This document shows, in pieces, positions 56,002-62,687 of a DNA stretch of 64,000 nt. This stretch comes from Cytophagaceae bacterium ABcell3 (GTDB lineage: Bacteria > Bacteroidota > Bacteroidia > Cytophagales > Cytophagaceae). Position 1 is the first letter of the stretch, and each line of letters begins with the position of its first letter. The notes under the pieces are model-generated. The model saw nothing but the letters and a program-made list of their open reading frames with translations. It ran no database searches and had not been told where the DNA came from. Made by a program: the position numbers and the translations under genes. The stretch spans positions 1 through 64,000 of the forward strand of contig CP133159.1 of NCBI GenBank assembly GCA_030913385.1, written 5' to 3'.

Positions 56002-57201
56002 ATGCTTACTGGCAAAAAAATACTCATTGGCGTGTGCGGAAGCATAGCGGCATACAAATCCGCACACCTGATCAGATTATTTATAAAAGAAGGAGCAGAA
56101 GTAAGGGTTGTCATGACCGCTTCTGCTTCTTCATTTATTACCCCGCTTACTTTATCAACTTTATCAAAGCACCAAGTTTATACGGACTTTGAAAACGGGT
56201 CATCTGGCGTTTGGAACAACCATGTAGACTTAGGCCTTTGGGCTGACGCTTTTATTATAGCCCCGGCAAGTGCCAACACCTTAGGAAAAATGGCCAATGG
56301 CCTATGCGACAACTTCCTAACGGCCGTTTATCTTTCTGCAAGGTGTCCAGTATTTTTTGCCCCTGCCATGGACCTAGACATGCACCAACACCCCGCTGTT
56401 GTCAGTGCAATAAGCAAACTAAAAGGCTTTGGAAACCATCTGATAGAGGCAGAGTCGGGCGAGCTGGCCAGTGGCCTTTACGGAACTGGCCGAATGGCAG
56501 AGCCAGAAAATATATTATCGCAAATACATCGTTTCTTTTCTAGTGGAAGGCTGAAAAACAAAAAGGTGCTAATCACCGCTGGCCCTACTAGAGAACCCTT
56601 AGACCCTGTGCGTTATATCACCAATCACTCCTCAGGGAAAATGGGCTATGCCCTGGCAAAATCTTTTGCAGCAGAAGGCGCAGAGGTAACAGTGGTATGT
56701 GGGCCAATACAAGAAAAGCCAGACACTTCTAACATAAAAACCGTTGACGTAACCACAGCAGTAGAGATGCACAAAGCGGTTATGGACATTTTCGAAAAGC
56801 AAGATATTTTAATTTTTGCTGCCGCCGTTGCCGACTATACACCTGCCGCCCCTTCGGACACTAAAATTAAGAAGAACGAAGACACCTTTGCCTTACACCT
56901 CAAAAAAAACCCAGATATTGCAGCAGAGGCAGGCAAAAAGAAACGACTAGGACAGTTTTTGGCAGGATTTGCACTGGAAACAAATAACGAAAAAGAGAAT
57001 GCCCTGAAGAAGCTTAAAAACAAAAACCTCGACATGATCATTCTCAACTCCCTTAAAGATGAAGGCGCCGGCTTTGGGCATGAAACAAACAAAATTTCCA
57101 TACTGGAAAAAGACAATAATTTTACGTCCTTTGAGTTAAAAAGTAAGGAAGAGGTGGCTAAAGATATTAAAGAGTTAGTGATCAAAAAAATCCATGTCTA
57201 G
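56002..57201 (+). CDS. coaBC: Bifunctional phosphopantothenoylcysteine decarboxylase/phosphopantothenate-cysteine ligase
   Basis: It performs two CoA steps. The N-terminal CoaC flavoprotein domain (about 1-185) has KILIGVCGSIAAYKS, the His-containing WNNHVDLGLWADAFIIAPASANTLGKMANGLCDNFL core and PAMDLDMHQHP. The C-terminal CoaB ligase (about 186-399) has ITAGPTREPLDPVRYITNHSSGKMGYALA and AAVADYTPAA. Its 399 residues match E. coli CoaBC. It uses phosphopantothenate derived from the panC/panD products. Its 3' end overlaps the DUF4835 gene by 8 bases. Confidence 0.96.
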   Translation: MLTGKKILIGVCGSIAAYKSAHLIRLFIKEGAEVRVVMTASASSFITPLTLSTLSKHQVYTDFENGSSGVWNNHVDLGLWADAFIIAPASANTLGKMANGLCDNFLTAVYLSARCPVFFAPAMDLDMHQHPAVVSAISKLKGFGNHLIEAESGELASGLYGTGRMAEPENILSQIHRFFSSGRLKNKKVLITAGPTREPLDPVRYITNHSSGKMGYALAKSFAAEGAEVTVVCGPIQEKPDTSNIKTVDVTTAVEMHKAVMDIFEKQDILIFAAAVADYTPAAPSDTKIKKNEDTFALHLKKNPDIAAEAGKKKRLGQFLAGFALETNNEKENALKKLKNKNLDMIILNSLKDEGAGFGHETNKISILEKDNNFTSFELKSKEEVAKDIKELVIKKIHV

Positions 57202-58099
57202 GATACTACCAATATTAATTACTTTTATTGTCCTGGGCTTTACTACAAAAGCCCAAGAGTTCGAAAGTCAGATTGAGATAAATGCTGAAAAACTCGAACT
57301 CTCTGACAAATCTATTGTCGAAGACTTGAAGCGTTCACTCTCCGACTTTATGGGAAGGCAGTGGACTGACGACGAGTTTAACACAGAAGAGCGTATCAAG
57401 GCCAACTTTATGATCACTATTATGGAGGGCACTGGTAACGCCAGTAAGCTAGATATAAAAAAAGCGAACCTACAGGTGCAGTTTTCAAGGCCGGTTTACA
57501 ACAGCTCTTACGAAACGGTGATGTTTAACTTCCTTGACCAAGGGGTTTCTTTTCAGTACCAACAAGGCCAGCCATTTAACTTTAACGAAAACTCATTTAT
57601 GGACAACCTGTCCAGTATTATGGGTTTTTATGCTTTTATCATACTCGGCATGGACTATGACAGCTTTTCAGAGCTAGGCGGCACCAAGTATTTTGAAACT
57701 GCCAGAAACATCGCAGGCGCTGCCCAATCGTCCAGTGCTTCTGGATGGGGGCAAGGTGAACAAAATGGTAGGTTCTGGCTGGAAGAAAATATCAATAGCC
57801 AAGTAATGATCCCTTTCAGAGAAGCCATGTACGTGTACCACCGCAAAGGGCTGGACACATTCTATAAAGATGTGGAAGAAGGGAGAAAAATCATTATGGA
57901 AGCATTCGAAGAAATTATACAGGTTAATAAAAACAAACCTAACACGCTACTAATGAAAAACTTTTTCCTGGCCAAAAACAGTGAACTGATTCAAATGTTC
58001 TCTGAAGCCCCACAGGAAGAGAAAAATAAAATAGTTCCTATCTTTAAACAGCTTGACCCATTGAACGCTGAAAAATATGACCGGATTCTCCGCAATTAA
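57194..58099 (+). CDS. DUF4835 family exported protein
   Basis: A 301-residue protein with a signal peptide (MSRILPILITFIVLGFTTKAQ). The sequence FESQIEINAEKLELSDKSIVEDLKRSLSDFMGRQWTDDEF at the mature start and FSRPVYNSSYETVMFNFLDQ follow the DUF4835 pattern, a family nearly confined to Bacteroidota and usually found between coaBC and recN, as here. Function unknown; a periplasmic location is predicted. Confidence 0.9.
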   Translation: MSRILPILITFIVLGFTTKAQEFESQIEINAEKLELSDKSIVEDLKRSLSDFMGRQWTDDEFNTEERIKANFMITIMEGTGNASKLDIKKANLQVQFSRPVYNSSYETVMFNFLDQGVSFQYQQGQPFNFNENSFMDNLSSIMGFYAFIILGMDYDSFSELGGTKYFETARNIAGAAQSSSASGWGQGEQNGRFWLEENINSQVMIPFREAMYVYHRKGLDTFYKDVEEGRKIIMEAFEEIIQVNKNKPNTLLMKNFFLAKNSELIQMFSEAPQEEKNKIVPIFKQLDPLNAEKYDRILRN

Positions 58100-58126: not shown

Positions 58127-58354
58127 ATGGGCAAAAGACTCACCAGAATCAAGGCTTCTGAACTGGTTCAGAAAAGCAGTGAAGTAATAAACAAAGAATG
58201 TGATATTGTATGCTATGGAAACAGAACATTCCATGGCATAATCACTGATCTTAATAGCCATGTTCTGTATTTTAAAAACATGTTTCAGAAACAATCAGAG
58301 ATTAAGCTGGAACATATTGAAGAAATAATTCTGGACAATGAATCCGCTTGGTAA
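58127..58354 (+). CDS. Small LSm/Hfq-like fold candidate
   Basis: A 75-residue protein from ATG 58127; an in-frame TTG lies two codons upstream. After a helical N terminus (about residues 7-22), ECDIVCYGNRTFHGIITD and NSHVLYFKNM match the Sm1 pattern (hydrophobic strand, G in the loop, G-x-(I/L)-x3-D, then hydrophobic strand). EIKLEHIEEIIL resembles the Sm2 strand pair. It lacks the typical Hfq residues. Most Bacteroidota lack Hfq, so an LSm-like fold would be notable. It lies 27 bp after DUF4835 and 7 bp before recN. The fold call is from pattern reading only. Confidence 0.6.
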   Translation: MGKRLTRIKASELVQKSSEVINKECDIVCYGNRTFHGIITDLNSHVLYFKNMFQKQSEIKLEHIEEIILDNESAW

Positions 58355-58361
58355 AATCGCT

Positions 58362-60023
58362 ATGTTAAAAAACCTGCAGATCAAAAACTATACTTTAATT
58401 AACCACCTTGAAATCAATCCTTCAAGAGGGCTTAATATAATAACTGGTGAAACGGGAGCTGGTAAATCTATCATGCTCGGAGCCATTGGATTACTTACAG
58501 GAAACCGTGCCGACACCAAATGCCTGCTCAATGAAAAAGAAAAATGTGTAATAGAAGCAGTTTTTGACATTTCTGAATATCACTTACAGGCATTTTTTGA
58601 AGAAGAAGACCTTGACTATGATCCGCAGTGCATTATCAGAAGAGAAATCAGCCCAAGCAACAAATCCAGGGCTTTTGTAAATGATACGCCGGTCACCCTA
58701 GACATTCTCAAAAAACTAGGAGGCAAGCTTATCGATATACACTCGCAGCATGAAACCCTCTTGCTCGGCAGCAGCAGCTTTCAGCTAAACATCCTAGACA
58801 CATGCGCCGGCAACCAGGACATGCTAAAATCTTACACTTCAAGCTATAAAAAATGGTCAGCAAAAAAAGACCGGCTACAAAAGCTTGAAACACTGCTCAG
58901 AGAAAATATTCGGGAGCAAGAGTTTAACACGTTTCTTTACAACGAGCTTTCAGAAGCCACGCTGGTAGACGGAGAGCAGGAAAAGCTGGAAGAGGAACTG
59001 CAGCTATTAGAAAACGCGGAAGAAATAAAAACGCGTCTCCAAGAAACCAAATACCTACTTGAAGACAGTGAAACAGCCATAGTCCCCAACCTAGGCGTGG
59101 GGATGAAAAACTTGGAATCGCTGGCCTCGTTCTCGCCTGCGTATGAAGAGCTGCAAAAAAGAATAGAAGGGTGCTGGCATGAACTGAAAGATATTTCAGA
59201 AGAAATTTCCGGCCTCGAAGAAAAGGTAGAAACAGGTGCCGAAAGGACAGAAATTGTAAGAGAACGTCTGAACAAGATCTTTACCCTACAGAAAAAACAT
59301 GCCGTACGCACAGTGGCAGAACTTCTGGAGATTGAGCAACAGTTGGCGCAAAAACTGGAAGAAAGCTCCGGTTATAGCGAAGAAGTGGAACAGTTGAAAA
59401 AAGAACTCGCCACAGATCATAAAGACCTGAAAAAGCAAGCCACTGCGCTTACACAAAGTCGTAATAAGGTTGTTCAGCCACTCTGCAAAGAGCTTAAAGA
59501 ATTATTGGCAGAAGTCGGTATCAAAGACGCTACCATTCAAATAGACAATATTCCGCTGGACGAGCCAGGGCCAACAGGTGCAGACCAAATAAAATTTTTG
59601 TTCAGCGCTAACAAAGGAATCAAAGCCCAAGACCTCAAAAATGCAGCATCAGGTGGGGAATTTTCGAGACTTATGCTATGCTTGAAGTATATACTTGCCG
59701 GAAAAACAGCATTGCCTACCATTATTTTTGATGAAATTGACACAGGTATCTCTGGCGAAGTAGCCATTAAAGTTGGGAAGATCATGAACCAAATGGCAAA
59801 AGGACACCAGGTAATTGCTATTTCTCACCTTCCGCAAATTGCTGCCATGGGGCAAAAACACTATTTTGTTTATAAGGACAATACATCAGACAAGACCTTC
59901 AGCAACATTAAGGAGCTGAAAGACAAAGACAGGGAACACGAAATAGCACGAATGATTGGCGGTGACAACCCTTCAGAGACTGCTGTCAAAAACGCCAGGG
60001 AACTGTTAGATTTTACCACCTGA
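58362..60023 (+). CDS. recN: DNA repair protein RecN
   Basis: An SMC-like ATPase for double-strand break repair. ATG 58362 gives 553 residues beginning MLKNLQIKNYTLI, as in RecN; an ATG at 58338 adds eight residues. Walker A is GETGAGKSIML (about residues 30-40), followed by the long coiled-coil region (about 150-360), then the ABC signature ASGGEFSRLMLCLKYIL and Walker B TIIFDEIDTGISGEVA. FSRLMLCLKY and AISHLPQIAAMGQKHYFV confirm RecN. It ends the lptA-like-to-recN run. Confidence 0.96.
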   Translation: MLKNLQIKNYTLINHLEINPSRGLNIITGETGAGKSIMLGAIGLLTGNRADTKCLLNEKEKCVIEAVFDISEYHLQAFFEEEDLDYDPQCIIRREISPSNKSRAFVNDTPVTLDILKKLGGKLIDIHSQHETLLLGSSSFQLNILDTCAGNQDMLKSYTSSYKKWSAKKDRLQKLETLLRENIREQEFNTFLYNELSEATLVDGEQEKLEEELQLLENAEEIKTRLQETKYLLEDSETAIVPNLGVGMKNLESLASFSPAYEELQKRIEGCWHELKDISEEISGLEEKVETGAERTEIVRERLNKIFTLQKKHAVRTVAELLEIEQQLAQKLEESSGYSEEVEQLKKELATDHKDLKKQATALTQSRNKVVQPLCKELKELLAEVGIKDATIQIDNIPLDEPGPTGADQIKFLFSANKGIKAQDLKNAASGGEFSRLMLCLKYILAGKTALPTIIFDEIDTGISGEVAIKVGKIMNQMAKGHQVIAISHLPQIAAMGQKHYFVYKDNTSDKTFSNIKELKDKDREHEIARMIGGDNPSETAVKNARELLDFTT

Positions 60024-62108: not shown

Positions 62109-62564
62109 TTAAGATTTCCCTCCAGAAGGCTTTGGGTTGTGGGATTTCTTTAAAGGTTCTTTTTGTACCTGGGCCTTTGACTCGCTATGCCTCCCCCCTT
62201 TTATAGGCTCCCGTTGCGGCCTTGCAGAATTGTCACGACTACCGCCTTCTGATTCTGGCTCGCCTATTTTAGTAGTGACTACCTTGTCAGACAAAGAAGA
62301 AACTTCTGCGCGTTCCACTGGAATTTTACCTTCTGAACCAGATTTTACTTGTGCACTAACTTCTGGACTAGAGGCGGCTTTATTAGCCGGTTTTTCCCTA
62401 CCCGAAATATCACGCTGTTCATTCGGTTTAGTACCATTTACCTTTTCTTTAACCCGCTCAGCCATCCCACTGGCCTTTGCGGTCATCTGTGAAGTAGTCT
62501 CAGAAACCTTCTCCATGATATCCTTAATAGTAGACTTCCCCTCCGGTGATTGTTTAGATGCCAT
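62109..62564 (-). CDS. Low-complexity, probably disordered small protein
   Basis: A 151-residue protein from ATG 62564 (an upstream ATG at 62588 adds eight residues). The N-terminal 40 residues (MASKQSPEGKSTIKDIMEKV...) can form an amphipathic helix; the remainder is rich in Ser, Lys, Glu, Pro and Gly with no hydrophobic core. I recognise no family. A same-size frame on the plus strand (62137-62595) is possible, but the minus frame has better start context and composition. The Gln/Lys/Ser-rich tail suggests intrinsic disorder or nucleic-acid association; that is speculation. Confidence 0.5.
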   Translation of the reverse strand: MASKQSPEGKSTIKDIMEKVSETTSQMTAKASGMAERVKEKVNGTKPNEQRDISGREKPANKAASSPEVSAQVKSGSEGKIPVERAEVSSLSDKVVTTKIGEPESEGGSRDNSARPQREPIKGGRHSESKAQVQKEPLKKSHNPKPSGGKS

Positions 62565-62687
62565 AATTGTAATATTTAGTTCTACCATCCCTTAAAAATC
62601 AACATTATGTATAAAAGATACGTTCGGGGAGGAACCTGCAGCATCTAAATAGGCGTTGTAACATGTAATTCAAAACATTCAGAAATA

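Follow-up and report, generated by a model that had tools for sequence, protein, structure and literature searches.

A conserved small protein of Cytophaga relatives and green sulfur bacteria, predicted to form a stand-alone Sm-fold barrel, with the RimP C-terminal domain as its likeliest nearest relative

Does the small gene that lies between porD and recN in this member of the Cytophagales encode an Sm-fold protein, and if so, to which branch of the Sm proteins does it belong and what might it bind? The first-pass annotation of the window, by which we mean the whole stretch of 64,000 nt of DNA that was analysed, had described the product as an LSm-like candidate RNA chaperone in a phylum that largely lacks Hfq. 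According to the accessible portions of two reports on Bacteroides (PMC11697453, PMC7366714), this genus has many sRNAs and the classical chaperones are missing. The accessible portion of a third source names KH, RRM and cold-shock-domain proteins as RNA-binding candidates of Bacteroides, as well as an RRM-1 protein in Porphyromonas, and no Sm-type protein is among the candidates given there (PMC12119571).

The premise on Hfq held in our searches, in which no match above the Pfam Hfq cut-off was found in any of the 190 genomes of the order or the 247 genomes of the phylum sample, with 5 of 14 control genomes positive; Pfam LSM was likewise not matched at E ≤ 0.001 in any of 148 phylum-sample genomes. 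Sub-cut-off Hfq matches were considered as hidden Hfq genes and rejected: those in the order cover just 34 and 41 of the 64 model positions, and both of those in the phylum sample contain stop codons. The two partial matches of the order, L034 (G139:C3:181949-182050) and L035 (G043:C36:34368-34490), possibly represent chance similarity or a related small barrel.

The 75-residue open reading frame itself is present as the annotation had it, and the product of 58127-58354 is MGKRLTRIKASELVQKSSEVINKECDIVCYGNRTFHGIITDLNSHVLYFKNMFQKQSEIKLEHIEEIILDNESAW (75 aa; Table 1). This is no chance ORF, since near-full-length matches occur in many genomes and dN/dS is low (0.024-0.207 in the 18 close pairs listed), as expected under purifying selection. 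The ATG is supported by conservation of the MGKR start in the 43-member alignment A6 (M1 in 43, G2 in 38, K3 in 40 and R4 in 41 of 43). Most homologues are 73-75 aa long and some are 80-84 aa; three of 82 aa (L149-L151), from two other families, have their extra residues in the loop that precedes strand 4 (about positions 50-65). The window genome contains no convincing second copy (best E 0.39), tblastn with the window protein gave no match in phages and plasmids, and viral contigs scanned with two single family proteins yielded no relative.

Table 1. Features of the locus (window coordinates; residue numbers refer to the 75-aa product)
Feature	Coordinates	Strand	Remarks
coaBC	56002..57201	+	same cluster
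porD / DUF4835 (type IX secretion PorD), upstream neighbour	57194..58099	+	Pfam DUF4835; NCBIfam PorD
CDS of putative stand-alone Sm-fold protein (RimP-C-like), 75 aa	58127..58354	+	ATG, 75 codons and stop
N-terminal MGKRxxRI segment, residues 1-8	58127..58150	+	among the best conserved; K3 40/43, R4 41/43, R7 32/43
Predicted Sm-fold domain, residues 11-70: short helix, then strands 24-29, 33-42, 46-50, 56-60, 64-70	58157..58336	+	AF2 model
Gly37, equivalent of the Sm1 glycine (Hfq Gly34)	58235..58237	+	42/43 members
beta3-beta4 loop, residues 50-57, consensus K/R-D-x-R-x-K/R-K/R-H	58274..58297	+	A6 alignment
recN, downstream neighbour	58362..60023	+	ORF opens at 58338; RecN model matches from residue 9, ATG 58362

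A lack of conservation outside the species had been named beforehand as a result that would count against the LSm proposal, and conservation instead proved to be wide. Searching with a single sequence detected the family in 49 of 194 genomes of the order, and a 26-row profile (A1) matched 76 of 187 at E ≤ 0.01: 60 of these have a match over at least 68 of the 75 positions (E ≤ 1.1e-5), the other 16 have only partial matches inside larger ORFs, and a full-length match is thus absent from 127 of the 187 genomes. The phylum sample contains matches in 107 of 395 genomes, of which 100 cover at least 65 positions and 7 are partial, and 81 of those 100 come from a single family, f37. In the class sample, a 43-row profile matched 15 of 159 genomes, 8 of them nearly over the full length, including the window genome, thus leaving 7 others. 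The FMO protein family was found in 11 of 15 genomes tested (f37 7/7, f35 2/2, f48 1/1, f69 1/1) and was absent from those of f40 (0/2) and f32 (0/1) and from the window genome; because all seven f37 genomes carry it, we refer to f37 as green-sulfur-type. Judging from these searches, most carriers of the protein are Cytophaga relatives or green sulfur bacteria, and the distribution of the family is patchy.

For the fold, we relied on two AlphaFold2 models, both computed from the same three sequences only. The model of the window protein (mean pLDDT 85.7, pTM 0.73) consists of a strand (residues 5-9), a short helix and five strands; the model centred on a member from Microscillaceae (pLDDT 85.0, pTM 0.68) has the same elements in the same order, with strand bounds that differ by at most one residue (E34-42, E46-51 and E64-71 variants). 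In VIA-align comparisons with the first model, the RimP C-terminal domain (RimP-C) of Mycobacterium smegmatis RimP (5gl6) gave Z 9.1 over 72 residues (rmsd 2.0) and was the only listed structure whose matched range starts before residue 9. Hfq structures gave Z 8.4-9.0 over 54-63 residues, and Hfq or Hfq-like entries fill 45 of the 50 listed rows, the others being two Sm/LSm proteins, one Gemin6/7, RimP and a designed barrel, namely the de novo SH3-like barrel 7uwy (Z 8.5). With the second model, Hfq accounts for 48 of the 50 listed rows, RimP ranks 19th (Z 8.6) and the remaining row is a designed barrel; the absence of a family from the listed rows does not exclude that family. The best VIA Z is typically 7-8 for queries with no clear match, so that the margin of a Z around 9 is modest. 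Used by itself, Foldseek returned nothing at E ≤ 0.001: its top match, to a chain of the Mnx complex, had E 5.2e-3, though Hfq, Sm-like, LSm, decapping-complex (Edc3) and spliceosome/snRNP entries make up 43 of the 50 rows listed. Altogether, the modelled N-terminal helix and five-strand bent beta-barrel make assignment to the Sm fold well supported, as the LSm proposal had anticipated, although the predicted fold alone indicates no function.

The family profile provides a further, finer distinction. Alignment A6 was hand-picked from fetched members, with near-duplicates left out, so that the counts describe that set; A1 and A2, an 11-row f37 profile, were likewise chosen by hand. As references we used 8 Hfq sequences and a RimP-C set from the order, for which 25 proteins were fetched and 24 kept (L179, with 50 of 70 positions matched, was left out). 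With hhalign, A6 matched RimP-C at 93.8% (E 1.8e-7, score 36.6), where the best of 300 column shuffles scored 16.6, and Hfq at 24.7% (score 22.3), where the best of 300 scored 20.1; none of the shuffles reached the true score in either case, but this control is lenient, because shuffling destroys the strand pattern along with the sequence order. A separate profile comparison with Hfq gave 12.5% for A6 and 1.6%, over 9 columns, for A2 alone. The two reference sets are unequal in depth, and the comparison was therefore repeated at 8 sequences, whereupon the RimP-C sets scored 27.6-40.5 over 40 draws.

Scores of single sequences against A6 separate the candidates less clearly. E. coli RimP-C scored best (35.7), the 24 RimP-C sequences of the order 16.9-33.9, the eight Hfq sequences 11.4-25.8 and two archaeal Sm proteins 16.9 and 18.3; the best Hfq (L143, 25.8) stands above 17 of the 24 RimP-C sequences of the order, and the RimP-C sequences at the bottom of the range do not surpass random pieces cut from window ORFs, of which the best among 200 scored 17.3. 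Against PDB sequences, the window protein alone reached E 0.26 at best (phmmer), and A6 matched 25 chains at E ≤ 10 (HMMER), among which only the archaeal Sm protein 1m5q was significant (E 1.2e-4), the others being mostly Sm, LSm and EDC3 at 0.03-1.4, with RimP at 0.11. The window protein itself matched neither Pfam RimP-C (PF17384) nor Pfam Hfq (PF17209) at E ≤ 1; RimP-C was matched, weakly, by 1 of 26 and 1 of 11 members, Hfq by 1 of 26 (best E 0.012) and LSM by 6 of 26. Some weak matches of the family profile are RimP itself: G024:C2:52691-52837 coincides with an above-cut-off Pfam RimP-C match, and L152 and L153, weak matches of the class sample, are likewise read as RimP. RimP-C is the likeliest nearest relative, because its profile-profile scores exceed those of Hfq at equal depth as well, and profile-level homology together with the same modelled fold places the protein with RimP-C, even though single-sequence scores overlap with those of Hfq. 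The window genome encodes a complete RimP of its own elsewhere (L158), so the small gene would be an additional, stand-alone barrel. Of the label LSm-like candidate RNA chaperone, the modelled fold and the wide conservation stand; with RimP-C and not Hfq as the nearest profile, the label as a whole is overstated.

Canonical Sm proteins contact RNA through an Asp or Asn in loop 3 (Sm1) and an Arg-Gly pair in loop 5 (Sm2), and the Sm2 hallmark of Hfq is a YKH motif. None of these is conserved in A6: positions 43-46 are variable, Lys or Arg occurs in at most 5% of members at 61-63, where there is no conserved Arg or Gly either (n = 43), and the positions equivalent to YKH by our own alignment (about 60-62) lack the motif, whereas Y55, K56 and H57 are invariant in the 8 aligned Hfq sequences. 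The family's own Lys-His at 56-57 was rejected as a YKH equivalent, with H57 lying about five residues upstream of the Hfq counterpart when aligned from strand 5. The Sm1 spacing claimed by the first-pass annotation proved partly right, in that the glycine (G37) is nearly invariant but D41, the supposed Sm1 aspartate, is not conserved and was rejected; by our alignment the Sm1 Asp position is 43, which is Asn in the window copy and Asp in 9 of 43 members. Conserved polar residues lie elsewhere (K/R50 in 31, D51 in 39, R53 in 28, H57 in 36 and D70 in 38 of 43 members), and the conserved polar surface, as deduced from the alignment, differs from the canonical Sm RNA site. In the window copy the beta3-beta4 loop departs from the consensus (N51, F53, Q56, S57); with N51, F53 and S57 it is a divergent member of the family, and it may be drifting or specialised.

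These data bear on whether the protein could be the functional counterpart of Hfq, that is, a homo-oligomeric Sm ring binding sRNAs and mRNAs. Such a role would suit the Sm fold with an N-terminal helix, the Hfq-like lengths, the predominance of Hfq among the structural matches, a profile score with Hfq that none of the 300 shuffles reached, an archaeal Sm protein as the best PDB match and the broad conservation of the family where Hfq is not detected. RimP-C is nonetheless nearer by profile, the RNA-contact motifs of Hfq and Sm proteins are missing, the gene is rare in the class sample and has no full-length match in most genomes of the order, and sRNAs are reported, in the accessible portions of PMC7366714 and PMC11697453, from Bacteroides that do not carry it. 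We therefore regard an Hfq-like function as unlikely.

The gene neighbourhood was described correctly as a coaBC-DUF4835-gene-recN cluster, and the DUF4835 gene scores 319.8 bits against NCBIfam PorD (cut-off 170), so that PorD appears to be the better name for 57194-58099. Only 27 nt separate the gene from porD and 7 nt from recN (taking the RecN start where the RecN model begins to match), so the genes look co-transcribed. A sigma-70 and terminator scan of the cluster returned 12 promoter-like sites against 8.8 ± 3.2 expected and 4 terminator-like sites against 5.1 ± 2.2. As an observation further downstream in the window, 62109-62595 holds two long overlapping antisense ORFs, of 159 aa on the - strand and 152 aa on the + strand.

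One locus, with roughly 1.5 kb of flank, was fetched from each of 33 different genomes of the order; recN lies downstream on the same strand in 30 of them, at a gap of at most 213 nt in 25 and 611-895 nt in 5; porD lies upstream in 20, a count for which the upstream DNA was short at L056 (71 nt) and L018 (981 nt), and both flank the gene in 18. PorD is present in 110 of 119 class genomes. Of 30 PorD loci fetched, none showed the gene in a tblastn search with the window protein, although such a search is a weak test; 16 have recN after porD at 0-207 nt, too short for the gene, and the remaining 14 have no recN within the stretch examined. In f37, greA and tpiA both flank the gene in all 28 best-scoring loci (L059-L086). 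This stable greA-[gene]-tpiA order of green-sulfur-type genomes may imply co-expression with an RNA polymerase factor there. Twenty further regions chosen for diversity have greA and tpiA in 5 (L118, L121, L122, L123 and L125, the last from the same genome as L079), recN in 8, and neither recN nor greA in 7. Within the phylum, the stable contexts make vertical descent look likelier, as judged from gene order rather than from a tree.

The linked genes, recN in the order and greA with tpiA in green-sulfur-type genomes, would also suit a different role, that of an SH3-like adaptor that binds a protein partner (RecN, RNA polymerase/GreA or another) and has no part in nucleic-acid binding. A conserved polar surface that is not the canonical Sm RNA site fits this idea, as does the de novo SH3-like barrel, which matches the model about as well as the natural structures do. 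The neighbours vary by clade, however, so that neither RecN nor GreA can be named as the partner from linkage alone, and with neither gene present in 7 of the 20 further regions, neither is obligate by this measure; moreover, the conserved residues include basic ones (K3, R4, R7, K/R50, R53, K/R55-56). An adaptor role of this kind seems improbable to us.

Of all models in Pfam and NCBIfam, just two match the window protein below E 0.001: DUF6897 (PF21838; residues 21-64, E 1.9e-5, 24.7 bits, barely over the cut-off of 23.9) and MM0924 (NF041655; residues 19-64, E 9.7e-6, 25.2 bits, far under the cut-off of 45). MM0924 is matched at E ≤ 1 by 12 of 26 and 7 of 11 members, but DUF6897 by only 5 of 26, leaving 21 of 26 with no match at that level, and an admittedly insensitive survey of 39 genomes of the order found DUF6897 above cut-off in one, the window genome. 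A search for either name in the open-licence literature found nothing relevant. Given these scores, and gene contexts that favour vertical descent within the phylum, it is very improbable that our proteins form the bacterial arm of the archaeal MM0924/DUF6897 family, perhaps horizontally transferred and with the same function.

Our leading reading, tentative and held at a little below even confidence, is that the gene encodes a free-standing RimP-C-like Sm-fold domain that binds RNA or the small ribosomal subunit. The fold in this reading comes from models, the conservation, purifying selection and closer profile kinship to RimP-C than to Hfq from sequence comparison, and the function by analogy. 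In the accessible portion of PMC9032327, RimP is described as a monomeric protein with a C-terminal domain of the Sm fold, which acts on assembly of the 30S subunit and binds S12. The protein would then be a small accessory factor that binds nucleic acid or ribosomes. Its barrel would most likely dock, much as RimP does on S12, onto the small ribosomal subunit or some other ribonucleoprotein, and contact would probably be made through the conserved basic N-terminus (MGKR..R) and the K/R-D-x-R..H loop. Given the kinship to RimP-C and the presumed RimP-like docking, a monomeric or small-oligomer RNP factor would be likelier than a hexameric sRNA matchmaker of the Hfq type. Several observations run against this RimP-C-like reading: single-sequence scores overlap, HMMER ranks 1m5q over RimP in the PDB, members match Pfam LSM more often than Pfam RimP-C, the neighbours recN, porD, greA and tpiA include no ribosome-assembly genes, and the window copy lacks D51, R53 and H57 in the proposed contact loop. 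A bolder version, in which a second, RimP-C-related lineage of RNA-binding Sm proteins was already present in the common ancestor of Cytophagales and green sulfur bacteria and serves as a global RNA binder that replaces Hfq, through a new RNA surface made up of the MGKR tail and the beta3-beta4 loop and not the Sm pore, is distinctly unlikely.

We found no description of the family in the open-licence literature, including the accessible portions of PMC11697453, PMC12119571, PMC9029176, PMC7366714, PMC9032327 and PMC1887533. For Cytophagales and green sulfur bacteria, in which no Hfq is detected, a conserved small protein of predicted Sm fold, invisible to the Pfam Hfq and LSM models, is a candidate for binding RNA or ribosomes. 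Its existence hints at free-standing relatives of the Sm barrel of RimP, a point of interest for the kinship between bacterial Sm proteins and ribosome-assembly factors.

Set beside the known systems, the family shares with archaeal and eukaryotic Sm/LSm proteins (PF01423; 1m5q, SmD1, EDC3) its best PDB matches, mostly over the helix and the Sm1 half, and differs from them in the Sm1 loop and the Sm2 Arg-Gly. With Hfq it has in common the helix-capped fold, a weak profile similarity and, by our reading of the alignment, an equal distance between the Sm1 glycine and the point where strand 3 ends, but not the YKH motif. The likeness to RimP-C (DUF150_C) extends to the N-terminal strand included in the 72-residue superposition, the G-K/R before the first strand, the G-x-hydrophobic in strand 2 and the hydrophobic-x-hydrophobic-x-(often D/E)-I at strands 4-5. 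Whereas RimP comprises two domains and carries an RQY motif, the family lacks both that motif and the N-terminal alpha/beta domain, and consists of the barrel only, 75 aa in the window copy, with its own MGKR start, K/R-D-x-R..H loop and D70.
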